DNA of 64,000 nt from Clostridiaceae bacterium. GTDB lineage: Bacteria > Bacillota > Clostridia > Christensenellales > CAG-917. Positions 3,569 through 61,509 of this stretch are shown here, one piece after another (positions within the stretch are counted from its first letter, which is position 1; each line of letters opens with the position of its first letter). The position numbers and the translations under genes were made by a program. The notes below the pieces were generated by a model. It was not told where the DNA came from and ran no database searches. It was given only the letters and a program-made list of their open reading frames with translations. The DNA is taken from NCBI GenBank assembly GCA_031289315.1, contig JAITPR010000022.1, forward strand, positions 62,001 to 126,000, given 5' to 3'.

Positions 3569-3631
3569 AGTATTCCATAAATGAGGTGTTTTTGTACTAG
3601 TATGCCGAAAACACCTCATTTATGGAATACT
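3569..3631. repeat. Perfect 24-bp inverted repeat with 15-base loop
   Basis: The arms 3569-3592 and 3608-3631 are exact reverse complements (arm core CCATAAATGAGGTGTTTT). There is no U-run after the hairpin in either direction, so a simple terminator is unlikely. It lies between the divergent pheS and recombinase promoters, about 65 bases from the latter. Confidence 0.9.
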
Positions 3632-3724: not shown

Positions 3725-3942
3725 AATATAAAGAGTTTTGCCCTGCTTGCAAGCAAAAAGCCAATGCCGTGCCGTACGGTGCGCGCGAAAATGTCCGCAT
3801 CCGAAGCGGAAATTCAAGGTTTTTGGGGCAAACGTGCCTCAAAACTACTTCCGCTCCCCTCCCCCGCCCGATTTCTAGGTGTCAAGGGTACGAAAACCGG
3901 CACCCTAGGGTGCTTTTGCAAACAAGGCTCCCTTTAAAACAG

Positions 3943-5001
3943 ATGGCTAAAGATTACTTTAAAGAAAGAGATAAGGAAAACCTTGAAAAAATACGGCAAA
4001 TACGTAAGGAACTGCCCTCTTTTTGCAACACCTTCTTTATAGGTATAGAACCGTCTACCACAGTGTTGACACGCTTGAATTATGCGCGCGATTTACAAGT
4101 ATTTTTCCGCTTTTTATCGGAAAACATCTTTAAAAAATATGTTTCGGACGATTACGTAATATCGGACTTAGATAAAATTAAATCCACCGATTTAGAGATG
4201 TTTGCGGACTTTTTGACTTCATACGAGGGTGCAGGCGGAGAAAACCGCATGAATTCCCCCAAAGGAAAGGCACGAAAGCTGTCCGCAATACGGACTTTTT
4301 ATAACTATTTCTACAAACACGACTTAATCAATACCAATCCCGCAGTTAAAATAACCTTTCCGAAATTACGTGAAAAAGAGATAATACGCTTGGAAAGCGA
4401 CGAAGTGGAACAGCTTTTGGAAACCGCGGATTTAGGCGAAAATATGACGTTGCAAGAAGCTAATTTTCACCTCCATACGCGCATGCGCGACGTTGCGATA
4501 CTGACGCTTCTTTTGGGTACGGGAATACGTGTAAGCGAATGCGTGGGGCTGAATATCGACGATATAGACTTTAAAATAAACGCCTTTACCGTGACAAGAA
4601 AGGGTGGCGGTCGCGTAATACTCTACTTTTCGGACGAGGTGAAAGCCGCCCTTACCGATTGGTTGGCGGCGCGCGCCGACATAGAGGATGTGCCGTCCGA
4701 CGAAAGCGCTCTGTTTTTGTCGTTGCAAAAGCGGCGCATATCCGTGCGAGCGGTGCAGTTGTTGGTGAAAAAATACAGTCAAAAGGTGACTACCGTCAAG
4801 AATATAACCCCTCACAAGCTACGCAGCACCTACGGCACCAGTCTATACCGCGCCACGCACGATATATATGTTGTAGCGGAGGTTTTGGGACACAAGGATA
4901 TAAACACAACAAAGAAACACTACGCCGCCATGAGCGAGGATATACGCCGCGCCGCCGCTGACAAGGTAAAATTGAAGGACGACGGCAACGATGACACCTA
5001 A
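3943..5001 (+). CDS. Tyrosine recombinase, XerC/XerD/XerA type
   Basis: A tyrosine recombinase that probably acts on chromosome-dimer resolution (dif) or a related site. The 352-residue product has an N-terminal core-binding domain (residues ~30-165) and a C-terminal catalytic domain. All six catalytic positions are present: R196 (TGIRVSE), K220 (TRKGGG), H291 and R294 (HKLRSTYG), H317 (LGHKD) and Y327 (KKHY). The frame is open upstream to 3769, but that extension overlaps a low-complexity leader and does not resemble the family. MAKDYFKERDKENL at 3943 is a better N-terminus, although no strong ribosome site precedes either start. It stands alone between pheS and the PadR gene. The family assignment is firm; I cannot say whether it is the cell's main Xer protein. 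A nearby perfect inverted repeat at 3569-3631 could be its substrate, but this is inference. Confidence 0.9.
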   Translation: MAKDYFKERDKENLEKIRQIRKELPSFCNTFFIGIEPSTTVLTRLNYARDLQVFFRFLSENIFKKYVSDDYVISDLDKIKSTDLEMFADFLTSYEGAGGENRMNSPKGKARKLSAIRTFYNYFYKHDLINTNPAVKITFPKLREKEIIRLESDEVEQLLETADLGENMTLQEANFHLHTRMRDVAILTLLLGTGIRVSECVGLNIDDIDFKINAFTVTRKGGGRVILYFSDEVKAALTDWLAARADIEDVPSDESALFLSLQKRRISVRAVQLLVKKYSQKVTTVKNITPHKLRSTYGTSLYRATHDIYVVAEVLGHKDINTTKKHYAAMSEDIRRAAADKVKLKDDGNDDT

Positions 5002-5078
5002 ATACCGTCATTTTCCCGAAAAATATGCCTTGTCATAAAAAAAATGTCGTTTTTTGGAAAACTTACATTTATATAATC

Positions 5079-5107
5079 TTGACATTTTCATAATAGAGGT
5101 GTAAAAT
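5079..5107 (+). promoter_or_regulatory. Sigma-A-type promoter of the PadR-repeat gene
   Basis: TTGACA (5079-5084) and TAAAAT (5102-5107) are 17 bases apart, a near-consensus promoter. The predicted start near 5114 gives a leader of about 135 bases. Confidence 0.75.
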
Positions 5108-5248
5108 TTATAATGAAAGTAGCATATACTTCGAAAACTTAATTAAAGTAGGTACCGCTTCCGATTCTTAAGCGTAGGCAAGCCTCAAAACAACCGCCGC
5201 CCTCCCCCGTCGAGCACGGGCGCGGCGCGGCACACGATAAGTTGCACT

Positions 5249-8113
5249 ATGGACATATCTACAGTAAACAGCGATATATTGCGCGGTAACGTCAATACCA
5301 TAATACTCTCCTCTCTTTTGGAAGGGGCAGGTTATTGCTACGACATTTTACGCGAGATAGAGTTGAAGAGCGACGGACAGTACCGCTTAAAGCAGGCGAC
5401 GCTTTACAGTTGTTTAAAACGTTTAGAACAACGCGGTCTAGTATATTCCTATTTGGGCGAGCTTGACGATACGGGCGGCGGCAGAAGACGGTATTATAAA
5501 CTTACCGAAGAAGGTCAGCTGTATTTTGAGCAAACCAAAAATGAGTACGTCTTTTCCAGAACTATTTTGGATAAGCTTGTGTCCGACGACGACTTCGACT
5601 TTACCAACCCCGTTCCGTTTGATCCGGACAGCCTGCGCCCCTACACCAAACGCAAGGGAGCGCGCGACGACGACATTTCCGACTTTTCCGGCGGCGCTAC
5701 GGAAACGGAAAGGATTGTGGAACGCGAGATTATCCGTGAGGTTCCCGTCGAACATGAAATAATCAAGGAAGTAACAATCGAGGTCGAGTCGATTAGAGAG
5801 GTTCCCGTGGAGGTGGTGCGTGAGGTTCGCGTTATTGTTGAAACGGCGGTTCCCGTGGAGTCCGTACGCGAAATCATACGCGAAATCGAAATCGACCGCC
5901 TCGTTGAGGTCACCAAAGAAATTGAAATTATCCGTGAAGTCGCGGTGGATCGTCCTGTGGAGGTTATACGTGAGATAGTCGTAGACCGCCCGGTTGAAGT
6001 GGTTCGTGAAGTCCCGATAGACCGCCCGGTCGAGGTTATTCGCGAAGTTCCGGTAGATCGCCCCGTGGAGATTATCCGAGAGGTAGTCGTAGACCGTCCT
6101 GTCGAAGTATTTCGCGAAGTCGCCATAGACCGCCCGGTCGAGGTTATTCGCGAAGTTCCGGTAGATCGCCCTGTGGAGATTATCCGTGAGATAGTCGTGG
6201 ATCGTCCGGTAGAGGTCGTTAGAGAGGTCGCCATAGACCGCCCCGTCGAAGTTATACGTGAGGTAATCGTAGACCGTCCCGTGGAGATTATCCGTGAGAT
6301 AGTTGTGGATCGCCCGGTAGAGGTTCTTCGTGAAGTCGCAATAGACCGCCCCGTCGAAGTGGAACGGGAAGTATTTGTAAAGTACGACGGAGAGGTTTCC
6401 GAAATCATAAAGGAAGTCCCCTTCCAAGTGGAGTCGATAAAGGAAATTTACGTACCGGTAGAAACCATACGCGAAATAGAGACTGTCCGCGAAGTTGCGG
6501 TAGACCGCCCTGTAGAGATTATACGCGAGATTGAAATCCTGCGCCCCGTCGAAGTCGTGAAGAACGTGGAAATCGTCCGCGAAGTCGAGGTTGAAAAACC
6601 GGTCGCCATTATAGTGGAGACCGCCGTAGAGGTCATACGAGAGGTTCCCGTTGAGGTTCCCGTTTCCGTTGAAACCTTCCGCGAAACGCAAGTCGAACGC
6701 GTAACCGAGGTTCTCAAGGAAATCGAAATTTTCAAGGAAATCCCCGTCAAAGTCGTTGAGGAAGTGGAAATCATCCGTGAGGTCGAAATAGAAAGACCGG
6801 TCGCGAATTTCTGCGAAATAGATAAAATTGTCCGTGTTCCCTTTGAGATTTTCAAGGAAGTGGAAATACTCCGCGAAACCGAAGCGATAAGAACCGTCGA
6901 AATCATAAAGGAAATTCAGGTAGAGGTAATTAAGGAAGTCCCCGTGGAAATCTATAGGGAAGTCCCCTACTACATAGACCGCATCGTGGAAAAGCCCGTA
7001 TACATAGAGGTACCCGTTCTCTTTGCCGCGGAACCACCCGTCGCCGAGACTGTTAACGATAACGCCGCAGCCGCTTTCAAAAAGGAAGGTCGCCGCGCCG
7101 GTAGAGGAAAATCGGATTTCACCGAAAGCTACGCCGCGGATGCCGAAGAAGTAGAAGAAGAAGTAATTGCATTAGATGTATTAAGTGACGAAGAGGCGGA
7201 CGACGCATTCGGAATGTACGACGAGGTGTCGGAAGACGTTGAGCAGATTAAACTAGACCGCGATAAGGAAGCTCTGCGTCGCCGCAAGGAAGCCTTAGGG
7301 TTTGCCGGCGACGATACTGAGGAAAGCGACTTAGAAGCGCGCAACACCAAACGCGGACGTTCCTTTGGCAGAAAAAACCGTGCTGCGGCGCTAAGAAACG
7401 ACGGCGGCGCAACGGCGATATACTACGGCGACGGGTTCCCTCCCTTTGCCGACGAAACCGCCGCAGTTCTCTCCGATACGGTGGAATTTGCCGCTAAAAA
7501 CGGCAACGGATATTTGGACTTTTTTGCAGATGTTCTGGACGAAACCAAGGGCGCCGTTGAAAACGACTCCGATAAAAACGACGGCGGCTCTTCGCAATTC
7601 GATTTAAAGATGCGCCTGTACGCCTCCGGCTTTCTCATGAAAACCTACGTCAAGTCGCAGTCGCGCGATTACTTTGAAAGCTCATTTATTCTCAAGTTCA
7701 AGCTTTGGCGTGATTGCGGATTTTTTATGATGCTTTTCCTTTGCGCCGGAATAGGGCTGTTTTGGGGGCTGTCCGGCGTGGGCGATACAAACCTCTATGC
7801 CGCTTTGTTCGGCGCCGCTGCGGTCATGTTTGTGGCTCCCCTGACGCTTTGGCTTTTTAACCCCGGCAAGCGCGGGCGTGCGGAATACAACTTCAAATCC
7901 TCTCTCCTGTTGCGCGCAATCATCTATATCGAAGCCGCGGTTGCCGCCGTATTCATTGCTTTCTACGCTATAGGCATAAACATAGAGGATACGCAATCCC
8001 TCTATCTGCCGCTGTTCTTACCGCTTGCGCTTCTCACGGTAATACCGTTCGGCGCACTGTTCAGACTGTGCCTGGGTAAGCTTAAACGCTATTCAATAAA
8101 ATATTCTAAATAG
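5249..8113 (+). CDS. PadR-type DNA-binding domain fused to a long REV/DRPVE repeat and a C-terminal membrane domain
   Basis: The 954-residue product has four parts. Residues ~1-105 are a PadR-type winged helix (ILSSLLEGAGYCYDILREIE, ATLYSCLKRLEQRGLV, GGGRRRYYKLTEEG). Residues ~164-590 are a charged, beta-prone repeat. Its core, at 5935-6370, is about twelve 12-residue units of the form DRPVEVIREVPV encoded by 36-bp DNA repeats; looser copies flank it. Residues ~600-800 are acidic and Lys/Arg-rich. Residues ~819-954 hold four hydrophobic helices (CGFFMMLFLCAGIGLFWGL and following) and a basic tail. PadR proteins are normally short soluble repressors of about 110-190 residues, so this arrangement is unusual. 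A membrane-tethered regulator is one reading, but its signal and target are unknown. It is monocistronic, with its own promoter and two terminator-like hairpins downstream. Antisense frames across the repeat are by-products of the repeat. Confidence 0.88.
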   Translation: MDISTVNSDILRGNVNTIILSSLLEGAGYCYDILREIELKSDGQYRLKQATLYSCLKRLEQRGLVYSYLGELDDTGGGRRRYYKLTEEGQLYFEQTKNEYVFSRTILDKLVSDDDFDFTNPVPFDPDSLRPYTKRKGARDDDISDFSGGATETERIVEREIIREVPVEHEIIKEVTIEVESIREVPVEVVREVRVIVETAVPVESVREIIREIEIDRLVEVTKEIEIIREVAVDRPVEVIREIVVDRPVEVVREVPIDRPVEVIREVPVDRPVEIIREVVVDRPVEVFREVAIDRPVEVIREVPVDRPVEIIREIVVDRPVEVVREVAIDRPVEVIREVIVDRPVEIIREIVVDRPVEVLREVAIDRPVEVEREVFVKYDGEVSEIIKEVPFQVESIKEIYVPVETIREIETVREVAVDRPVEIIREIEILRPVEVVKNVEIVREVEVEKPVAIIVETAVEVIREVPVEVPVSVETFRETQVERVTEVLKEIEIFKEIPVKVVEEVEIIREVEIERPVANFCEIDKIVRVPFEIFKEVEILRETEAIRTVEIIKEIQVEVIKEVPVEIYREVPYYIDRIVEKPVYIEVPVLFAAEPPVAETVNDNAAAAFKKEGRRAGRGKSDFTESYAADAEEVEEEVIALDVLSDEEADDAFGMYDEVSEDVEQIKLDRDKEALRRRKEALGFAGDDTEESDLEARNTKRGRSFGRKNRAAALRNDGGATAIYYGDGFPPFADETAAVLSDTVEFAAKNGNGYLDFFADVLDETKGAVENDSDKNDGGSSQFDLKMRLYASGFLMKTYVKSQSRDYFESSFILKFKLWRDCGFFMMLFLCAGIGLFWGLSGVGDTNLYAALFGAAAVMFVAPLTLWLFNPGKRGRAEYNFKSSLLLRAIIYIEAAVAAVFIAFYAIGINIEDTQSLYLPLFLPLALLTVIPFGALFRLCLGKLKRYSIKYSK
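5935..6370 (+). repeat. 36-bp coding tandem repeat in the PadR-fusion gene
   Basis: About twelve consecutive 36-bp units encode the variants DRPVE-V/I-V/I-REV-P/A/V-V/I. The copies are near-identical at DNA level (the GACCGCCCGGTCGAGG type recurs), which points to recent expansion. Both strands are open in several frames here only because of the repeat. Confidence 0.9.
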
Positions 8114-21517: not shown

Positions 21518-21600
21518 AACCGTATGCAACCGGTTTTTATATCCGTATACAGTCGGTTTCTATATCCGTATACAGTCGGCTTTTACATCCATATCCAGCC
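21518..21600. repeat. Short tandem repeat at the 3' end of the giant peptidase gene
   Basis: Three to four copies of a unit of about 26 bp (type GTATACAGTCGGTTTCTATATCC) span the stop codon of the leftward gene. The last codons of the gene, GWIWM, are made from the first copy. Confidence 0.8.
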
Positions 21601-24600
21601 GAACAGTACGATAAGGTAGAACCATTGCAGCGGCGACGGGCTTACCTTCACGGTGCATGTATCGGTATTATTATTTGAATCCGTTATGGTAATCGTTGCC
21701 GTCATGGTCTTTGTGAAGCTAGTCGTCGAGTTTACAATACCCGTATTCGGGTCGACGGTTACCTTATCGTTATCGGAACTGAATTTATAGGGTCCGCTAC
21801 CGTTTTTGATATGCAGTTGCAGTCTACCCTTATATTCCATCGTATAGGCGGACTGAGTAAATGCGGGTGGCGACGCCAACGAGTTTCCAGTTCCTTGCCA
21901 AACGGCGTAAAGAGTTAAATTTTCATTTTCAACATATTGACTATCGGGCAGATACTCCACCGCAAACGCGGTACTGACGCTCGACCACCCTAAAAATACA
22001 TAACCTACACGGGTGGGTTCGACGCTACTAAGTGTAAGCACCTTGTTATGGGTTTTTATTTGATTACTCGGTTCGCCGACACCACCCTTGGGGTTGTAAA
22101 TTACGCTATAGGTATTGATGACCCAAACGGCGTAAAGCTTAATTGTCGCGTCGTTGGTCGTCGTAAGATTTATAACGGTTTCACCGTCGGCGTAGGCTAA
22201 CGAACCGGAGGAATATGCCCAACCTGCGAAAGTGTAGTCCGGACGCGCGAATACGTTGGAGGTTAATTGGCTTTCCGTATCGTAAACATGCACGGAGTCG
22301 GACATTTCACCGTTACCGCCGTTGGGGTTGTAATTTACGCCATAGGTATTAGCTATCCAAACGGCGTAAATATCCAGCCTATCTCCGGAGGTTGTAGTTA
22401 GGTTTAGGACGCTTTCACGGTCGCCGTAAACAATCTCTCCGTCGGCTTCGGTAGACCATCCTGCGAAGGCGTACCCGCTGCGGGTGAACGCGTTTATGGT
22501 TAATTCCTTTGCCGTATCGTAAACATGTGAGGAGTCGGACATTTTACCGCTGCCGCCGTTGGCATTATAGCCTACCTTGTAGAAAACGTTGCTCTGCCAA
22601 AGGGCGTACAGGTCTATCGTTTCGCCGTCGGTCGATGTGAGGTTTATCACGCTTTGGAGGTTGGTATATACCACCTTTCCGTCGGCTTCCGTCGCCCACC
22701 CGGTAAAGACGTACATCGCCATGGTAAAGGTGTTTGCGGACAGCGCTTTCGCCGCGTCGTAGGCATGCGCGGAGTCGGACATCTCACCGCTGCCGCCGTT
22801 GGCGTTATATCTTACGCCATAGGTATTAGCCGTCCAAACGGCGTACAAGCTTATCGTTACGCCATCGGTCGCCGTGAGGTTTAACACGCTTTGAGCGTCG
22901 ACGTAGGCTAGCGTACCGGTGGACTCCGCCCATCCCGCGAAGGTGTAACCTATGCGTTCGAAGGCGTTGGCGGTTAGCTCGCTTGTGATACCGTAGGTAT
23001 GCACGGAGTCGGGCGTGGCACCCTTGCCGCCGTTGGGATTATATTTTACAACGTAGGTATTGGCGGTCCAAACGGCGTAGAGGTTAACGGTTGCGCCGTT
23101 GGTTGCCGTGAGATTTGCCACGCTCTGACCGTCGGCGTAGGATAACGTACCAACCGACGTAGCCCACCCGGCAAAGGTGTAACCCGTACGCACATATGCG
23201 TTAACGGTTAACGTGCGTACCGTGTTGTAAGTATGCGAGGAGTTTAGCATGCTACCGATGCCGCCGTTGGCATTATACTTTACGACGTAGGTGTTTGCCT
23301 TCCAAACGGCGTAGAGATTGACGATTTCGTCGTCGATTGCCGTCAAGTTCATTATCGCTTCCCGGTCGCCGTAAACAATCGGACCGGAGGCGGATGTAGC
23401 CCATCCTGCGTAAGAGTAACCTATGCGTTCGAACGTGTTGGCGGTTAATACGCTTGCAGTATTGTAGGCGTGTGAGGAATCGGACATCTCTCCGCTTCCG
23501 CCGTTGGCGTTATACCTTATACCGTAAACAATGTCGATATGCCAAACGGCATAGAGAGTTATAATTTCGTCGGCGACTAGTGTGACGTTTATCACCGTTT
23601 CCCGGTCGCCGTAAGCTATTTGACCGTCGGCTGACGTCGCCCATCCGATAAAGCTGTAATTCGCGCGTACAAACGCATTGGCGGTTAACGCCTTTGCAAT
23701 ACCGTAGGTATGTGAGGAGTCGGACATCTTTCCGGTTCCGCCGTTTGCATCGTAGGTTATAACGTAGTTGTTAATTGTCCAAACGGCGTACAGGTTTATG
23801 AATTCACCGTTGATAGAGGTAAGGCTTACCACGCTTTGTCCGTCGGCGTAAATTATTTGACCGGCGGACGTCGCCGCCCAACCTACAAACGAGTAACCCG
23901 TGCGGGTAAAGGCGTTGGCGGTTAATTCGCTTGCCGTACCGTAAAGGTGCAAGGAATCGGACATAACGCCGTTTCCGCCGTTTGCATTGTATTTTATGCT
24001 GTAAGTGTGGGCAATCCAAAAGGCGTAAAGGGTTACGATTTCGCCGGCGGTCGACGTTAGGTTTTTCACGATTTGACGGTCGACGTAGATTAACGAACCG
24101 TCGGCTTCCGTCGCCCATCCGCCGAAGATGTAACCCGTGCGTGTGAACGCGTTAGCGGATAATTTGCTTTCAAGATTGTAGATATGTGAGGAATCGGATG
24201 TGAAACCGCTGCCGCCGTTGGAATCGTAAGCTACGGAATAGGTATTAACCGTCCAAACGGCGTAGAGGTTTATGGTATCTCCGGCGGTTGACGTGAGGTT
24301 TATAATACTCTGTCCGTCCGTGTACGCAAGCGAACCGATAGCCGACGTCGCCCAACCTATAAACGTGTAGCCCGTGCGGGTAAACGCGTTGGCGGTTAGT
24401 TTTTTCGCCGTATTATAAGCATGCTCGGAGTCGGACATATCTCCGCTTCCGCCGTTGGCGCTGTATTTTACGCTGTAGACATTGGCGCTCCAAACGGCGT
24501 AAAGATCAAACGTTTCCTTGTCGCTTGCCGTGAGGTTTATCACGCTTTGTCCGTCCGTATATTCAACGATCCCGTAGGCGTCCGCCGCCCACCCGGCAAA

Positions 24601-27600
24601 GGCGTAGCCCGTGCGTGTGAACACATTGACGGTTAATTCCTTTGCCGTATCGTAAACATGTTCGGAATCGGACATTTCACCGCTTCCGCCGTTGGCATTA
24701 TAGGCTACAACATAGTTATTAACCGTCCATACGGCGTACAAGCTTACGGTCGCGCCGGCGGTTGACGTAAGGTTTAACACGCTTTGACCGTCGACGTATT
24801 CAATGCTTCCTTCGGCATCCGTAGCCCACCCGATAAAGGTGTAACCCGTATTAACAAAGGCGTTGGCGGTTAATTCGCTTGCCGTATCGTAAACATGTTC
24901 GGAATCGGACATTTCACCGGTTCCGCCGTTTGCATTGTAATTGACGCCGTAGATATTGGCACCCCAAACGGCATAAACATTAACCGTCGCACCGTTGGCA
25001 GTTGTGAGATTTATCACGCTTTGACCGTCGGTATATTTAACGCTTCCGTCCTCCGTCGTCGCCCACCCGGCAAAGGCATAGCCCGTGCGTGTGAACGCGT
25101 TGACGGTTAATTCGCTTGCCGTATTGTAGATATGCGCGGAGTCGGACATATCTCCGGTTCCGTTGTTCGCATTATATTGGACGGCGTAGGTATTAGCCGT
25201 CCAAACGGCGTACAATTCTATTCTGTCGCCGTTGGTCGTCGTAAGGTTTACCACCTTTTGACCGTCGGCATATACGACGCTTCCGTCCGCCGCCGTCGCC
25301 CACCCGGCGTAAGTGTAACCCGCACGTATGAAGGTATTTGCGGTTAGTGTTTTTTCCGAATCGTAGACGTGCGCGGAATCGGACATGGTCCCGTTGCCGC
25401 CGTTTGCGTTATACCTTACGGTGTAAATAACACCTGTATGCCAAATCGCATAGAGGTTGATAATGTCGCCGTCGGTCGCCGTGAGGTTTAACACGCTTTG
25501 ACCGTTGGTATATGCAATGATGTCGTCGTCCGTCGCCCACCTGGCAAAGTTGTAACCTATGCGTGTGAAGGCATTGACGGTTAACGCGCTTGCCGTATCG
25601 TAAATATGTGTGGAATCGGACATATCACCGCTTCCGCCGTTGGCATTGTACCTTACGCCGTAGGTGATTGCCTGCCAAACGGCGTAGATATTAACCGTTC
25701 CGCCGGCTGTCGTCGTGAGGTTTATCACGTTCTGTCCGTCGGTATATTCAACGGTTCCGTCCTCTTCCGTCGCCCACCCGACGTAAATGTAACCCGTGCG
25801 TGTGAACGCATTTGCGGTTAATTCGCTTGCCGTATCGTAAGCATACGCGGAGTCGGACATATCACCGCTTCCGCCGTTGGCATTGTACTTTACGCTATAT
25901 GCGTTAGCAGTCCAAACGGCGTAGAGATTAACCGTCCCATCGTCGGTCGTCGTAAGATTTAGATTGCCGCTGTACCCGTCGCCGTATATGACGTTTCCAC
26001 CGGCGGACACCGCCCACCCGGCAAAGGTGTATCCGGGACGTGTAAACGCGTTGAGTGTTAAACTGCTTGTCGTATTGTAGGTATGCGCGGAATCGGACAT
26101 ATCGCCGCTTCCGCCGTTGGCGTTATATATCACGCTGTAGGTGTTGGCGTGCCAAACGGCATAAAGCACCACGGAAGCCTCGTCGGTATAGTCCCCGCCC
26201 GGTTGATATACGGGTGTTACTGCGCCGCTGTCCGGCGACCACCCTAAGAAGGTGTATCCCGTTCGGGTGAGAATATCCGCCCTTAAGACAAGCGTCTCTC
26301 CGAACGGCTTAGTTTGGGTTGCCGGCGCGCCGTTGCCGCCGTTGGCATTGTATGAAACGGTATAGGTAACGGTGTCCTTCAACAAGACCGTGAACGAACC
26401 CGTACTTGACACGTTATAACTCCTAGCCTTTAAATAATAGGTTCTTCCCGCAGTCATACCATAGGTAATCAGGAAGTTCATCCCTTCGCCGGAATCATCA
26501 TCTTTAGCAAGCTCCGATGCCGCTATCGAATCGTAAATATACCCGATGACATCCAACGAGCCAATAGAAGTGAACGAGTATATACTCGTGCCGCTAGCCA
26601 CATATTTATACCAAATTTCTTGCTCCGCCCAACAAACCACCGATGCCGTAGGCGTATTGATAGCCAATAACGGCGCGTCCGTCCAAACGGCGTAAAGAGT
26701 TAAATCGGCATCTAAATGAACGATTTCACCGGGTAAATAGTCCGGAGTTGTCGCCAGGCTGTTTGCCGCCCAACCGTCGAAATTATGTCCCGAGCGCTTA
26801 GGCGCTAAGGTCGGAATTGTTACGTTGTCGCCGACTATCGGCAACAGCGGTGATATGGTTCCCCCGTTCGGGTTCAGCTTCAATTCAGAAACATTCGAAT
26901 CGGGATAATAGAAGCTCTTAGACCCGCTGTTTAAATTCAAATTCGGGGTTTCCGATTTTAACAGCGTGTCCCCATGATAAAATTTTATTGATTTTATGAG
27001 AGTGCTACCCGATAACGTCCCCCTGTCGGAAACGATAACGGTCAACTGACTTGTATCAAAATTGGCAACCGCCGAGCCATAATCGAAGACAAACGTCGCG
27101 TCGTCCGCAATAGTCGTCCCTTTAAACGAATACGCTCCGCCGCGCCCTACGCCCATGTAAAGACTGACGGAAAAAAGCGTATCGGCATAGACAGTCGGAT
27201 TTGCACCGTCCTTGCCGGAAATTTGCACGTTTATATCGCTACGTTGATTGCTGTTGAGCGTTACCTCGCAAGTAACGTCAAGCGAATAATTGGCTACTTC
27301 AATATAAAAAATCTCATAAAGGTCGAATATCTCACTTCTTATTTTTCCGGTGCTTGCATTTTGCTCGGGAGTGTTCGACTGCTTGTTGAGCGCGTCGTAC
27401 ATAACCCAAATAAAGCCGGCGTTGCCCCAACTGGTTCCCCATGAATTGGCTATTTTAAAAGCGCCTCTTTCAAAATCTTCGATAATCCCGTTGTTGTTTA
27501 AATCACACGTAACATCGTCGTTATATCCGACTATGGTCAAGGAATGTCCGTCCCACGTGGGGTTGCCATGAATGTCCAAATAACTTTCTTGACGCATGAC

Positions 27601-28440
27601 GATGTTGCCCCACTCCGAAGTGCCGTAACGCACAATCCAATCGGAGCCGCCGCTGCCTACGTCGGTTTGGAACACCACTGGATGATTTTGATTAAGCTGG
27701 GCTTTGATTTTATTTAAATCGGAATCCGTATTACTGGTGATAGGAGTACTTCCCGACGCAAAAAAATCCGACTTGTAAGATGAAACTCTTGACTTTAAGG
27801 CGTTCCGCATTATGTTGCCGTCGGTCACCCATTCGCGGTAATTTAAGGCATAAGGGACTTCCGCTAAGGTTGCGGCGCCGCTTGTTTTTAACAGTGTAAA
27901 CGCATCGTCATTATAAGACCCGCCGTCCGTGCCGTTGTTTATGTAATTGTATGTCCATTGGGGTGAGAACACCTTAGAGGTGTCTAAGACGCCGCCGTTT
28001 CTAACCGTCCAGTCGTTTAAACGGGCGACCTCATATGTAAACGTGTAGTAGGTGGTAGACCATGAAACGCAAGAACCCAAAGAGCCTTGGTTGCCGATTG
28101 TCGGGAAATATTTGTCTTGACTTAGGTCAATCGCCGCTAGATAGGACACTCCCTCGGTGCCGGCACTTAGCTTGAGCGGCGAAACGAGAGCCGCGTCATT
28201 GTTTTCCGAACGCTTTGCGCCCAACCCGAAGCTTTCGAACTCATCTCCGTCCGGAGGAAGAACCTCGTCCCCCGTTGAGGCGTTTTCGATAATTTGTCCG
28301 TCCTCCGCCACAGCCGTAAAACCCGCAATATTTGGGAAAACAATGAAACCCACGCTGAAAAAAAGCACCGCTATCGCTAATATACCCAGACGCTTTGTCA
28401 GCCTTTCTATTATTCTTTTATTTATGTTTTTCATGTTCAT
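21583..28440 (-). CDS. Secreted papain-family (C1A) peptidase with 20 InlB-type repeats
   Basis: A 2285-residue surface protein. A signal or anchor helix lies at residues ~19-36 (GILAIAVLFFSVGFIVFP). The C1A peptidase domain (~100-390) has Cys124 in NQGSLGSCVSWS, the His in GHSLTIVGYND (~300) and the Asn in ANSWGTSWG (~333), so it should be active. One InlB-type repeat (NPNGG...GHNFDGW...LYAVW) and a PPC-like beta domain follow. Nineteen tandem repeats of about 75 residues then carry YNANGG, GYTFAGWA and LYAVW. The end is a beta domain and a final hydrophobic run LQWFYLIVLFGWIWM with no basic tail. The frame is open to 28473, but those codons lie in the dispersed element, so I start at 28440 behind AGGTAAG. 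It probably cuts or binds host or neighbour surface proteins; the target is unknown. Confidence 0.9.
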   Translation of the reverse strand: MNMKNINKRIIERLTKRLGILAIAVLFFSVGFIVFPNIAGFTAVAEDGQIIENASTGDEVLPPDGDEFESFGLGAKRSENNDAALVSPLKLSAGTEGVSYLAAIDLSQDKYFPTIGNQGSLGSCVSWSTTYYTFTYEVARLNDWTVRNGGVLDTSKVFSPQWTYNYINNGTDGGSYNDDAFTLLKTSGAATLAEVPYALNYREWVTDGNIMRNALKSRVSSYKSDFFASGSTPITSNTDSDLNKIKAQLNQNHPVVFQTDVGSGGSDWIVRYGTSEWGNIVMRQESYLDIHGNPTWDGHSLTIVGYNDDVTCDLNNNGIIEDFERGAFKIANSWGTSWGNAGFIWVMYDALNKQSNTPEQNASTGKIRSEIFDLYEIFYIEVANYSLDVTCEVTLNSNQRSDINVQISGKDGANPTVYADTLFSVSLYMGVGRGGAYSFKGTTIADDATFVFDYGSAVANFDTSQLTVIVSDRGTLSGSTLIKSIKFYHGDTLLKSETPNLNLNSGSKSFYYPDSNVSELKLNPNGGTISPLLPIVGDNVTIPTLAPKRSGHNFDGWAANSLATTPDYLPGEIVHLDADLTLYAVWTDAPLLAINTPTASVVCWAEQEIWYKYVASGTSIYSFTSIGSLDVIGYIYDSIAASELAKDDDSGEGMNFLITYGMTAGRTYYLKARSYNVSSTGSFTVLLKDTVTYTVSYNANGGNGAPATQTKPFGETLVLRADILTRTGYTFLGWSPDSGAVTPVYQPGGDYTDEASVVLYAVWHANTYSVIYNANGGSGDMSDSAHTYNTTSSLTLNAFTRPGYTFAGWAVSAGGNVIYGDGYSGNLNLTTTDDGTVNLYAVWTANAYSVKYNANGGSGDMSDSAYAYDTASELTANAFTRTGYIYVGWATEEDGTVEYTDGQNVINLTTTAGGTVNIYAVWQAITYGVRYNANGGSGDMSDSTHIYDTASALTVNAFTRIGYNFARWATDDDIIAYTNGQSVLNLTATDGDIINLYAIWHTGVIYTVRYNANGGNGTMSDSAHVYDSEKTLTANTFIRAGYTYAGWATAADGSVVYADGQKVVNLTTTNGDRIELYAVWTANTYAVQYNANNGTGDMSDSAHIYNTASELTVNAFTRTGYAFAGWATTEDGSVKYTDGQSVINLTTANGATVNVYAVWGANIYGVNYNANGGTGEMSDSEHVYDTASELTANAFVNTGYTFIGWATDAEGSIEYVDGQSVLNLTSTAGATVSLYAVWTVNNYVVAYNANGGSGEMSDSEHVYDTAKELTVNVFTRTGYAFAGWAADAYGIVEYTDGQSVINLTASDKETFDLYAVWSANVYSVKYSANGGSGDMSDSEHAYNTAKKLTANAFTRTGYTFIGWATSAIGSLAYTDGQSIINLTSTAGDTINLYAVWTVNTYSVAYDSNGGSGFTSDSSHIYNLESKLSANAFTRTGYIFGGWATEADGSLIYVDRQIVKNLTSTAGEIVTLYAFWIAHTYSIKYNANGGNGVMSDSLHLYGTASELTANAFTRTGYSFVGWAATSAGQIIYADGQSVVSLTSINGEFINLYAVWTINNYVITYDANGGTGKMSDSSHTYGIAKALTANAFVRANYSFIGWATSADGQIAYGDRETVINVTLVADEIITLYAVWHIDIVYGIRYNANGGSGEMSDSSHAYNTASVLTANTFERIGYSYAGWATSASGPIVYGDREAIMNLTAIDDEIVNLYAVWKANTYVVKYNANGGIGSMLNSSHTYNTVRTLTVNAYVRTGYTFAGWATSVGTLSYADGQSVANLTATNGATVNLYAVWTANTYVVKYNPNGGKGATPDSVHTYGITSELTANAFERIGYTFAGWAESTGTLAYVDAQSVLNLTATDGVTISLYAVWTANTYGVRYNANGGSGEMSDSAHAYDAAKALSANTFTMAMYVFTGWATEADGKVVYTNLQSVINLTSTDGETIDLYALWQSNVFYKVGYNANGGSGKMSDSSHVYDTAKELTINAFTRSGYAFAGWSTEADGEIVYGDRESVLNLTTTSGDRLDIYAVWIANTYGVNYNPNGGNGEMSDSVHVYDTESQLTSNVFARPDYTFAGWAYSSGSLAYADGETVINLTTTNDATIKLYAVWVINTYSVIYNPKGGVGEPSNQIKTHNKVLTLSSVEPTRVGYVFLGWSSVSTAFAVEYLPDSQYVENENLTLYAVWQGTGNSLASPPAFTQSAYTMEYKGRLQLHIKNGSGPYKFSSDNDKVTVDPNTGIVNSTTSFTKTMTATITITDSNNNTDTCTVKVSPSPLQWFYLIVLFGWIWM

Positions 28441-28456
28441 GGTACGCTTACCTATA

Positions 28457-28526
28457 GGGTGTGGGCAATCCATTGTGGTGACTTACTGTCTAAGAAAATC
28501 TTTTGTCACCGCGAATTATCCTCCCC
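28457..28526. repeat. Dispersed inverted-repeat element, short form, copy 8
   Basis: GGGTGTGGGCAATCCATTGTGGTGA-type left end and TCACCGCGAATTATCCTCCCC right end. It ends 16 bases from the peptidase ATG and lies within its predicted leader. Confidence 0.88.
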
Positions 28527-32562: not shown

Positions 32563-32775
32563 ATTGGAAGGCTTTATGCGCGTTGCATGGGGACGTGGCG
32601 TATGAGGGTAGGCACCTATTAGGGGACCTTTCGACTGCGCGCGGCACGCCGCGCTACGCTCAAGGTGACAGTCTATATAACCCGCTCCTATTGGGTGACA
32701 CGTGGGGGGAAACGCTCCTATTGGGTGACACGTGGGAATAAATTCCCGCTCCTATTGGGTGACAGTTGAATTCTG
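32563..32775. repeat. Second repeat family, copy 1, with CTCCTATTGGGTGACA units
   Basis: It contains TTGGAAGGCTTTATGCGCG, then TTAGGGGACCTTTCGACTGC, GCGGCACGCCGCGCTACGCT and CAAGGTGACAGTCT. Three units of about 30 bp carrying CGCTCCTATTGGGTGACA follow. A diverged inverse copy lies at 32778-32860 (CTGTCATATTGAGCCGAAAG). Confidence 0.85.
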
Positions 32776-32875
32776 CGTAGACTGTCATATTGAGCCGAAA
32801 GCGTTGAGGTGACAACCGAAACGGGTTCGTGTCGAAATATCCCCTAAGACAAAGACGCGAACTTTTGCGTCTGCG

Positions 32876-33250
32876 GCGACAGCCCCCGCATTGGTGGCGG
32901 CGAATGCCGCCGATGTTATACTACATACCGCTTTATGCGCGTTGTTTAGGGACGTGACGTAAGGGGCTAGGCACCCATAAGGGGACCTTTCGACTGCGCG
33001 CGGCACGCCGCGCTACGCTCAAGGTGACAGTCTAAAATTCCCGCTCCTATTGGGTGACACGTGGGGGGAAACGCTCCTATTAGGTGACACGTGGGAATAA
33101 ATTTCCGCTCCTATTGGGTGACACGTGGGAATAAATTCCTCTCCTATTGGGTGACAGTACTAATAACACCCGCCCCATATGGGGTGACAATCTAAATAAA
33201 CCGCTCCCCCATTCGGTAACGTGAGGGGAAACCGCTCCCCCATTGGGTGA
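32876..33250. repeat. Second repeat family, copy 2, with five or more CTCCTATTGGGTGACA units
   Basis: It starts with GCGACAGCCCCCGCATTGGT, then CTTTATGCGCGTTGTTTAGG, and the same AGGGGACCTTTCGACTGC core. Several 25-30-bp units, ending CCATTGGGTGACA, lead directly into the ribosome site of the gene at 33264. No gene is seen in this stretch. Confidence 0.85.
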
Positions 33251-33263
33251 CAATAAGGTGAAG

Positions 33264-34151
33264 ATGAAGAGTAAAAACGGAAAGAGGCTAATTGCGATAA
33301 TAACAACGGCATTGATTGTTGTAGCGGCGCTGTCACTGGCGATTTTTACCGTTGCGTGGTATTCGGCTTCGGCGAGAACGGGCATTTTATACGAGGTGGA
33401 CGCAAGCGGCTTTTTCATGTTATATTTTGACAGTGAAATCGAAAACGAGGACGCATTTTTACTCCCGGCGGTGGCGAAAAAAGGAGCCGTTTTGGACGGC
33501 GACATAACGCCCGCTACGGATTTATTTATCACCAACGCACCCGACCCGAACGCGCATTCCGTCAACCCGGCTTCACCCATAGACCGCGCTCCGGTGGGTG
33601 TCGAGTACATGACGATACTAAATATGCGTGACGCTTTAGACACGGCTGGCACCGCGCGCAACATACGTTTAGACTTCAATGCGCGTAGCCGCCGAATGGA
33701 TAGCGGAGAGTTTTTCAATCTAAATTTTAACACGGATATTTCGTTGAAAGTCACACTTTACATATATGAAAACGGCACTTCACCCATAGTTTTTATACCG
33801 GGAACGGGAGAAATGGTCCACGCGCAGGATGCGGACGGGAACTATCTTTACGATGATGACGACAACAAGGTACCAACCATGATAGAGATAAACGCCGCGC
33901 CGGATTTTGAGAATGACACGAACTTTTCGCAATATAAAGAGCTTGAACTTTCGCAGAGCAAAAAGAACACCATGGTGGATCCGTCGGATGATTTATGGCT
34001 TACGGGCGACAGTGTTGTGTACATAAAAATCGAAGCATATTTGCTGCAGGTTGACGAGCTTTGCGAACCGGGCATACGCGAATATGGCGTACGCTTCACC
34101 GTGGGCGCGCAGTTCTACATGGACGGAATACCGTACGTACCGTCACCTTAA
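33264..34151 (+). CDS. Small anchored surface subunit, TasA/pilin-like layout
   Basis: A 295-residue protein. A basic start (MKSKNGKRL) is followed by a helix IAIITTALIVVAALSLAIFT and then VAWYSASARTG. The helix-then-AW-F/Y-S pattern also begins the protein at 60787 and recalls SipW-processed fibre proteins such as TasA, but I see no proven cleavage site and no SipW-type peptidase in the window. The body is beta-rich, with a C-terminal strand EYGVRFTVGAQFYM resembling MFRFIVAIKLEV at 60787. The frame runs up to 33243 with a TTG, but AAGGTG five bases before the ATG at 33264 decides the start. It is first gene of the rightward operon with the giant protein. Confidence 0.72.
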   Translation: MKSKNGKRLIAIITTALIVVAALSLAIFTVAWYSASARTGILYEVDASGFFMLYFDSEIENEDAFLLPAVAKKGAVLDGDITPATDLFITNAPDPNAHSVNPASPIDRAPVGVEYMTILNMRDALDTAGTARNIRLDFNARSRRMDSGEFFNLNFNTDISLKVTLYIYENGTSPIVFIPGTGEMVHAQDADGNYLYDDDDNKVPTMIEINAAPDFENDTNFSQYKELELSQSKKNTMVDPSDDLWLTGDSVVYIKIEAYLLQVDELCEPGIREYGVRFTVGAQFYMDGIPYVPSP

Positions 34152-60790: not shown

Positions 60791-61509
60791 AAAAAGTAGC
60801 ATTTGCAATAATTCAGCTTGCGGTTATAACTCTGACTCTCGTTTTGGTATTGACTACCTATGCGTGGTTTAGTGCAAATAAAGAGGTCAACGTATCTAAA
60901 GCCACCGTAACTGCGGGTGTGCCGAGTTATATCGTGTTTGACTCCATAGAGGACGATGAAATCGACCTGTTCAGCGGACAAACCGGACAAGGCGCTCCGG
61001 GCAACGAGGACGCGCCCTATCGCATCAAAAAAATCTTAGAGGTTACCGTATCGAATACCATGGGTAGCAACGCGGCAATCGCAATCGACATTGAATCGGC
61101 AAAAATAACTAAACAAGACGGCTCTGAGATAAATATTTCGCACGAAGACATAAAACAATTCTTCACGTGGCGCTTGACCTATCACGTTGTCGGTCTACCC
61201 GATAACAATACGCTGTATGCTCCCGATGATAAGTTCTTCGCACGTGAAGCCCCTTCCGTGGGTGCTTTGGGCGGCTATATTAATCCGCCTACCGGAGAAA
61301 CATCCTATGTTATATCACTTGAATTGGTGTTCTTGGGCGAACCCGATTACCGCCTTTGGGAGGAAATCGTTCAAGGCGAAATAGACGATATTTACGACGA
61401 GGAAGAAAAGCCCTATGAGCAAATAGAGGTGTTTCCATTTAGTGATATTTCCTATATGCACTCAATGTTCCGCTTCATTGTAGCTATAAAGCTTGAGGTT
61501 CCTGCCTAA
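60787..61509 (+). CDS. Small anchored surface subunit coupled to the giant gene
   Basis: A 240-residue protein. A helix IIQLAVITLTLVLVLTTY runs into AWFSANKEVNVSKATVTAGV, the same layout as the protein at 33264 and similar to SipW-dependent TasA/camelysin-type exported subunits. The body is beta-rich (ILEVTVSNTMGSNAAIAIDI, YVISLELVFLG), with an acidic stretch DDIYDEEEKPYEQ near the end. The ATG overlaps the stop of the giant gene as ATGA, so translation is coupled and the two products are probably needed together. I infer a fibre or accessory subunit. The family name is uncertain because homologues were not searched. Confidence 0.75.
   Translation: MKKVAFAIIQLAVITLTLVLVLTTYAWFSANKEVNVSKATVTAGVPSYIVFDSIEDDEIDLFSGQTGQGAPGNEDAPYRIKKILEVTVSNTMGSNAAIAIDIESAKITKQDGSEINISHEDIKQFFTWRLTYHVVGLPDNNTLYAPDDKFFAREAPSVGALGGYINPPTGETSYVISLELVFLGEPDYRLWEEIVQGEIDDIYDEEEKPYEQIEVFPFSDISYMHSMFRFIVAIKLEVPA

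Follow-up and report, generated by a model that had tools for sequence, protein, structure and literature searches.

A PadR-type protein with a four-helix membrane tail, encoded close to a predicted dif in gut Clostridia, as a candidate anchor of the replication terminus

MatP, which organises the terminus macrodomain of enterics and Vibrio, links the replication terminus to the divisome (PMC7188993), and its site, matS, recurs 23 times over 800 kb (PMC3330122). Reports of MatP and ZapB are confined to enterics and their relatives, and the coordination of terminus and division in most other bacteria is described as unclear (PMC7188993). Here, we analyse a 64,000-nucleotide stretch from a Clostridiaceae bacterium (assembly GCA_031289315.1, contig JAITPR010000022.1, positions 62,001 to 126,000 of the forward strand; hereafter the window), in which a gene at 5249-8113 joins a PadR-type head, by a long linker, to a transmembrane (TM) tail. 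We call it PadR-TM. With a probability of about 0.62, its product is an autoregulated, integral-membrane, terminus-binding chromosome anchor that would resemble MatP/matS in function but be unrelated to it. The basis of this reading is the architecture of the protein and its conservation, the adjacent Xer gene, a unique dif-like site at the GC-skew flip, the clustering of a dyad in the terminus region, and a copy of this dyad in the gene's own promoter; from these we infer that the protein binds the dyads as their owner, represses its own gene, tethers the terminus, and has a role in segregation or dimer resolution.

The likeness to MatP/matS lies in sequence-specific sites, here candidate ones, that are repeated in the terminus region around dif. 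The differences are in the site (a 33-bp dyad instead of the 13-bp matS), in the region, which is tighter (~200 kb), in the integral four-helix anchor as against the ZapB-mediated contact of MatP, and in the hosts, which are Bacillota and not enterics; no match to MatP was found for PadR-TM among its Pfam or NCBIfam matches. ZapT of Caulobacter, which also carries the annotation of a transcription regulator, has a preference for binding near the terminus and connects it with the Z-ring (PMC7188993). However, it is MerR-type, no consensus site was found for it, and the text consulted mentions no membrane domain, whereas PadR-TM is PadR-type and membrane-integral and has a clear dyad associated with it. 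In Streptococcus pneumoniae, RocS, to be considered with RacA and Par, has an N-terminal winged helix, a coiled-coil linker, a C-terminal membrane attachment, and a role in segregation (PMC11500499). Its head is MerR-like, its attachment is an amphipathic helix, and no terminus-specific sites are described for it in the text consulted, whereas PadR-TM combines PadR with four TM helices and is encoded beside Xer and dif. FtsK/SpoIIIE proteins share with PadR-TM the four TM helices, the long variable linker, and the winged helix, and they act with Xer at dif (general knowledge; PMC5357621), but in PadR-TM the order of the domains is reversed, there is no FtsK motor domain (PF01580) in the Pfam search, and the genome encodes a separate FtsK/SpoIIIE.

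Two further kinds of systems are close in one respect each. The HAAS-PadR pairs couple a PadR-type head to a membrane protein, but there the PadR protein is standalone and the HAAS membrane protein is separate (PMC11237479), whereas in PadR-TM the two parts are fused and no HAAS/DUF1700 match was found among 41 tails. A pair of this standalone sort occurs elsewhere in the genome (locus L110, contig G000:C7, 9297-10533), with a PadR gene at 10189-10533 beside a HAAS-like multi-helix membrane protein at 9297-10187. The XerS/difSL and XerH/difH systems have one Xer recombinase with dif close to its gene (PMC5357621), and in several of the present families dif is likewise close to xer; these systems differ in that the dif of the present genomes is a symmetric palindrome of 13+6+13 bp and in that a membrane-anchored DNA-binding protein is encoded in the neighbourhood. 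No earlier description of a protein such as PadR-TM was found in the open-access literature searched.

The original prediction for this gene, which was made from the letters of the window, placed a PadR head, a repeat, and a four-helix membrane tail in one protein. This architecture is borne out by an uninterrupted 954-codon open reading frame (ORF), by the match to PF03551, and by hydropathy and AlphaFold models. The parts of the protein are:

5249-8113, plus strand: PadR-linker-4TM protein of 954 amino acids; single ORF, orthologues in 36 of 43 family genomes
5249-5653, plus strand: residues 1-135, the winged-helix head of PadR type, whose C-terminal helix serves dimerisation; PF03551 (E value 1.1e-14), 1xma, confident in the full-length model
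5711-7168, plus strand: REV/DRPVE-rich linker, about residues 155-640; tandem repeat, 12 DRPVE, AlphaFold confidence score (pLDDT) ~30
7169-7600, plus strand: acidic low-confidence linker from repeat to tail; from sequence, low pLDDT over most of its length
7601-8110, plus strand: conserved C-terminal domain, a short amphipathic lead-in and four TM helices; alignment A1 of 41 tails, pLDDT 92.5
7694-7774, 7787-7858, 7892-7972, and 7991-8080, plus strand: the TM helices of the tail

PF03551 matches residues 19-94 with an E value of 2e-13 and a score of 50.6 bits, the cutoff being 27. Among proteins of solved structure, members of the PadR family match the first 113 residues, the nearest being 1xma (E value 2.4e-24). 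Within the family of the window's genome the heads have a mean pairwise identity of 77%. With its length and its four TM helices, the protein is unlike the typical small soluble PadR regulator. The hydrophobic helices of the tail (residues ~816-842, 847-870, 882-908, and 915-944) are found by both hydropathy and AlphaFold. A scan of the 41 tails gave no convincing Pfam match (one weak match to DUF1129, E value 0.049), and a Foldseek comparison of the modelled tail with the solved folds in the PDB gave none either (best E value 2.0). Between helices 2 and 3 lies a conserved basic loop, NPxKRxRAxFNFK, and because this loop fits the cytoplasmic side the N- and C-termini would both lie in the cytoplasm, which would agree with what a DNA-binding head requires.

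The original prediction had described about a dozen near-identical 36-bp repeats; they are regular, and Tandem Repeats Finder gives 11.9 copies of 36 bp at 5928-6357, but they match one another at only 67%, and units of 108 bp (4.0 copies, 83% match) resolve the same segment better. The protein has 13 DRPVE motifs, 12 of them at an exact spacing of 12 residues (residues 234-366), within the looser V/I/E/R-rich region of ~480 residues. The prediction that the repeat forms a beta-rich or coiled spacer found no support: AlphaFold gives it no strands and no confident structure, and the linkers of relatives may have any length (55-677 amino acids) and a varied composition (acidic, coiled-coil-like, or Asn/Ser-rich). 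The REV/DRPVE repeat is this lineage's version of a hypervariable linker, the least conserved part of the protein. Several relatives (L043, L049, and L052) have short VEVEKPVEV or KEVPVEVVKEV stretches directly after the head, which suggests that the REV repeat arose by expansion of a short motif already present in an ancestor.

The combination of head and tail is, in contrast to the linker, conserved. The domain order proposed for a search in clostridial genomes was found across one order, and the ORF, for which a split had been envisaged, has head and tail together in 57 of the 59 relatives read across this order of uncultured gut Clostridia. A search based on the tail recovered the gene in 36 of the 43 genomes of the window's family, in 24 of the 25 of high quality, and in 53 of the 200 genomes of the order. 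In a class-level profile search the convincing matches were confined to the order, the others being weak, and either short or broken by stops; the full-length protein as a query against the genome contigs gave no match, probably because the query is dominated by its repeat. The relatives that carry names are uncultured gut Clostridia, Candidatus Limadaptatus, and 'Christensenella sp. UBA1260'.

The position of the gene in the chromosome is given by a dif-like palindrome, CTATTCGCAAAA-N6-TTTTGCGAATAG, which was first recognised upstream of the PadR-TM gene in other families. The sites and the recombinase gene near PadR-TM in the window's own genome (G000; draft, 90% complete) are:

G000:C41:48563-48592: symmetric dif-like site TCTATTCGCAAAA-CATAGA-TTTTGCGAATAGA; occurs once in the genome, where the GC skew flips
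3569-3631, no strand: 63-bp candidate terminus site with outer AGTATTC...GAATACT, an inverted repeat with perfect 24-bp arms and a 15-bp centre
3943-5001, plus strand: Xer-type tyrosine recombinase; PF00589 with E value 1.5e-33, XerS-like with E value 2.8e-52
5065-5097, plus strand: dyad in the promoter of PadR-TM, a candidate operator for autorepression; from sequence, conserved in relatives, weight-matrix score 15

The dif-like site was found in exactly one copy in 27 of the 36 genomes tested, and a control pattern had no match; the canonical Firmicutes XerCD dif consensus had no credible match. In the window's genome the site lies 13.4 kb upstream of the start of the window. In the five genomes examined, GC skew and gene strand switch from plus to minus at or close to it, with flips at 48.6 kb of contig C41 in the own genome, at 99.3 kb in G189, at 138.3 kb in G160, near 50-64 kb in G022, and, less sharply, near 114-150 kb in G033. 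The dnaA gene is on contigs other than that of dif, and at the skew minimum in two genomes examined. By position and form, the symmetric site is thus the predicted dif. The PadR-TM gene is a terminus gene across the families tested, because it lies between 90 bp and 55.2 kb from dif in all 24 genomes in which the two share a contig (90 bp-18.8 kb outside the window's family, 18.7-55.2 kb inside it); in three others, each lies on a contig of its own. In several families, dif is next to xer and separated from the PadR-TM gene by no more than a few hundred bp.

The Xer gene directly precedes the PadR-TM gene on the same strand in all 20 loci of the family, and it is near it in 53 of the 59 loci of the order, in 16 of them in the opposite orientation; several of the loci that lack a nearby Xer are cut by contig ends. 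The longest ORF of xer in the window starts at 3769, and similarity to relatives supports the ATG at 3943. This Xer has one match only in its genome and no close paralogue; a second, integrase-like recombinase is encoded at 14988-15911 of the window. Less constant neighbours are rnhA, proC, lexA, miaA, and mutL, all named from sequence. Upstream of xer in loci of the family, e.g., in L035, L041, and L043, a dif half-site (TTTTGCGAATAGTTT) overlaps the conserved xer promoter (TTGACATTTTGCGAATAGTTTG...), an arrangement by which Xer may be its own repressor, acting through the half-site. GC-rich stretches that resemble each other (CCTCAAAAC...CCTCCCCCG) occur at ~3800-3880 upstream of xer and at ~5180-5225 in the long PadR-TM leader; they may belong to a dispersed repeat, to which this leader would owe its greater length in comparison with relatives.

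The candidate operator of the gene has a counterpart in the sites around dif. In most family members, the dyad ACTATTAT-N17-ATAATAGT brackets the -35 of a TTGACt-N17-TAtcAT promoter. The promoter in the window (TTGACA at 5079-5084, a 17-bp spacer with the right arm CATAATAGA, and TAAAAT at 5102-5107) has kept the right arm of the dyad, and its left arm is degenerate. PadR genes are usually autoregulated, and a dyad around the -35 has the layout that suggests an autorepression operator, here a candidate one. The 33-bp consensus of the dyad is AGTATTaTAAAAtaTgccAtaTTTTAtAATACT, with ~10-20 copies in genomes of the window's family, mostly less than 100 kb from dif. The relaxed pattern ASTATTMTA-N15-TAKAATAST has 8-18 matches in most family genomes (lower counts in G001, 5, and G036, 4), and its reversed control 0-3 in most. 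The spacer of 15 stands out among dyad spacers of 8-23, and a de novo dyad search allowing one mismatch ranked this dyad first in G033, a search with exact 7-mers being too insensitive. The dyad was also considered as an intrinsic terminator and rejected, since it is AT-rich and has no GC stem.

The distribution of the matches is strongly regional. All ten genome-wide matches of G033 are on its 171-kb dif contig (binomial 4e-10), all 12 of G022 are on the dif contig and within 106 kb (1e-9), and 9 of the 11 of G027, the promoter site included, are on the dif contig (6e-8); overlapping pairs of dyads inflate these binomials somewhat, and collapsing them in G033 gives p = 3e-8. A weight matrix finds 13 sites of at least 20 bits on the dif contig of G033 and 18 of at least 16 bits on that of G022. 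No site above 16 bits turned up in 340 kb of control contigs, nor in the final 119 kb of this G022 contig; the dyad is also absent from control regions near dnaA. In six genomes, the 49 sites that share a contig with dif are all at most 100 kb from it, on both sides, with a median of 23 kb; this list excludes promoter sites and two distant matches in G039 that are probably due to chance. The orientation of the sites relative to dif has no bias (27 versus 22 by the stronger half, 13 versus 8 by position 7), and some of the sites overlap as double dyads, at distances of 22 or 30 bp. The site maps were all made from draft genomes, and the genome-wide counts rest on pattern searches and selected stretches. 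Because the consensus and the matrix derive from matches in these same genomes, it is the regional clustering, and not the score, that counts as independent evidence. The window's genome departs from its relatives: its consensus has drifted to a 63-bp double site, AGTATTC-N49-GAATACT, which has exactly three perfect copies in 2.18 Mb, all less than 18 kb from dif on C41, and a fourth site of 63 bp, with one mismatch and matching internal sequence, on the unplaced contig C6. The copy within the window (3569-3631) is intergenic, upstream of xer.

Taken as an anchor, PadR-TM would work as follows. The PadR head dimer would recognise the 33-bp dyads around dif and would also bind the dyad that overlaps the -35 of its own promoter, repressing its gene. 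The long flexible linker would bridge the distance between DNA and membrane, a task for which any sequence may be tolerated, the REV repeat included. By the four-helix tail the whole complex would be anchored in the membrane, with the division site as the likeliest place, and the tether would keep the terminus and dif at the membrane, probably at the septum, where the neighbouring Xer could resolve chromosome dimers. A link between chromosome and membrane had been part of the original prediction, and it gains strong indirect support from the terminus-clustered dyads, the promoter dyad, and the linkage to dif and Xer; on the other idea in that prediction, the sensing of a membrane state, the results speak neither for nor against. 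Even odds seem right for the more specific idea that one protein makes the whole connection, with PadR dyads around dif, self-regulation, and a functional unit formed with a single Xer and a symmetric dif, as the counterpart in Clostridia of MatP-ZapB-divisome.

A number of observations weigh against the anchor. The attribution of the dyads to PadR-TM depends on the one in its own promoter. The families of G189 and G160 keep the gene, Xer, and dif, yet no cluster of dyads was found in these two genomes, either by the one-mismatch de novo search or by a scan with their own promoter inverted repeats. The window's own genome retains the family consensus only in eroded form (one match, as in the control) and has few sites; in G042 and G039 the controls are high (6 matches versus 5 and 8 versus 5), and some of the sites of G028 and G030 are on contigs not linked to dif. 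The Xer adjacency lies partly within a wider conserved block (mutL, miaA, lexA, rnhA, and proC). Finally, the FtsK/SpoIIIE encoded by the genome (G000:C61) means that a membrane-linked handler of the terminus is already present.

These points leave room for other explanations. PadR-TM could be a membrane-bound transcription regulator, whose tail senses the state of the membrane or envelope and whose head controls a local regulon and its own promoter, the sites being ordinary operators that are near the terminus by chance. PadR proteins are repressors, the promoter dyad is operator-like, many of the sites are intergenic in tandem gene arrangements, and the related PadR-HAAS pairs couple PadR to membrane signals (PMC11237479). 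We nevertheless consider such a regulator unlikely: the sites are concentrated in 100-200 kb around dif, a constant linkage to dif and Xer is not what a local regulon predicts, and the nearby genes (e.g., mutL, miaA, recN, and spoVA, named from sequence) make no coherent regulon. Because 5 of the 28 sites of G033 and G022 are inside genes and a few others between convergent genes, their placement is more in keeping with a role in chromosome architecture than with a regulon. The dyads could also belong to a different DNA-binding protein, one that organises the terminus and represses the PadR-TM gene as well, leaving PadR-TM to respond only or to serve an unrelated membrane task. That PadR-TM binds the dyad is a prediction, and the window's genome and two other families keep the protein and not the family consensus. 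A separate owner is still distinctly unlikely, given that PadR genes usually regulate themselves (general knowledge), that the promoter dyad has a fixed place around the -35 in most family members, and that the dyads are most simply attributed to a membrane-anchored DNA-binding protein that is encoded at dif and has such a dyad in its own promoter.

The architecture and the symmetry of the sites bear on two further possibilities. The RTP of B. subtilis shares fold and dimer organisation with PadR proteins (PMC3506622), and its terminus sites have two parts, each of which binds a dimer (PMC10331603); the sites described here flank dif, some as overlapping double dyads, so that PadR-fold dimers could arrest replication forks at inverted repeats of the terminus. 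Such a fork trap needs polar sites, however, whereas the dyads are near-symmetric and without orientation bias to dif; it would not be expected to have a membrane anchor and a long linker, and the RTP family is absent from the Pfam and NCBIfam matches. We regard it as very unlikely. That the gene is a spurious fusion, or a decayed gene with a meaningless repeat expansion, is hardly credible. The repeat is indeed of low complexity and specific to the lineage, but since head and tail share one ORF in nearly all relatives read, neither an assembly fusion nor chance explains the architecture, which rules out the fusion, and presence in all but one of the high-quality family genomes speaks against decay.

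The window has other features that lie apart from PadR-TM. Three 44-bp direct repeats at 11251-11382 overlap the 5' end of spoVAC and apparently repeat its start region. A protein of 2296 amino acids (21583-28473) has a papain-like protease head followed by many InlB-type repeats, encoded by 237-bp DNA repeats, and at 32664-33189 repeats of 30-34 bp (GGTGACACGTG...CCCGCTCCTATTG) cluster around the start of an ORF. A single ORF of 8652 amino acids (34832-60790) has repeated domains like those of surface proteins and is flanked by small genes resembling those of secreted proteins (33243-34151 and 60787-61509).

PadR-TM offers a concrete candidate in Bacillota for a link between terminus and membrane, one for which both a 33-bp site and a dif are predicted and which has its own membrane anchor. 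If the anchor is real, it would be a clear case of a PadR repressor fold recruited to hold the chromosome, in parallel to the MerR-type ZapT and to RTP with its PadR-like fold.

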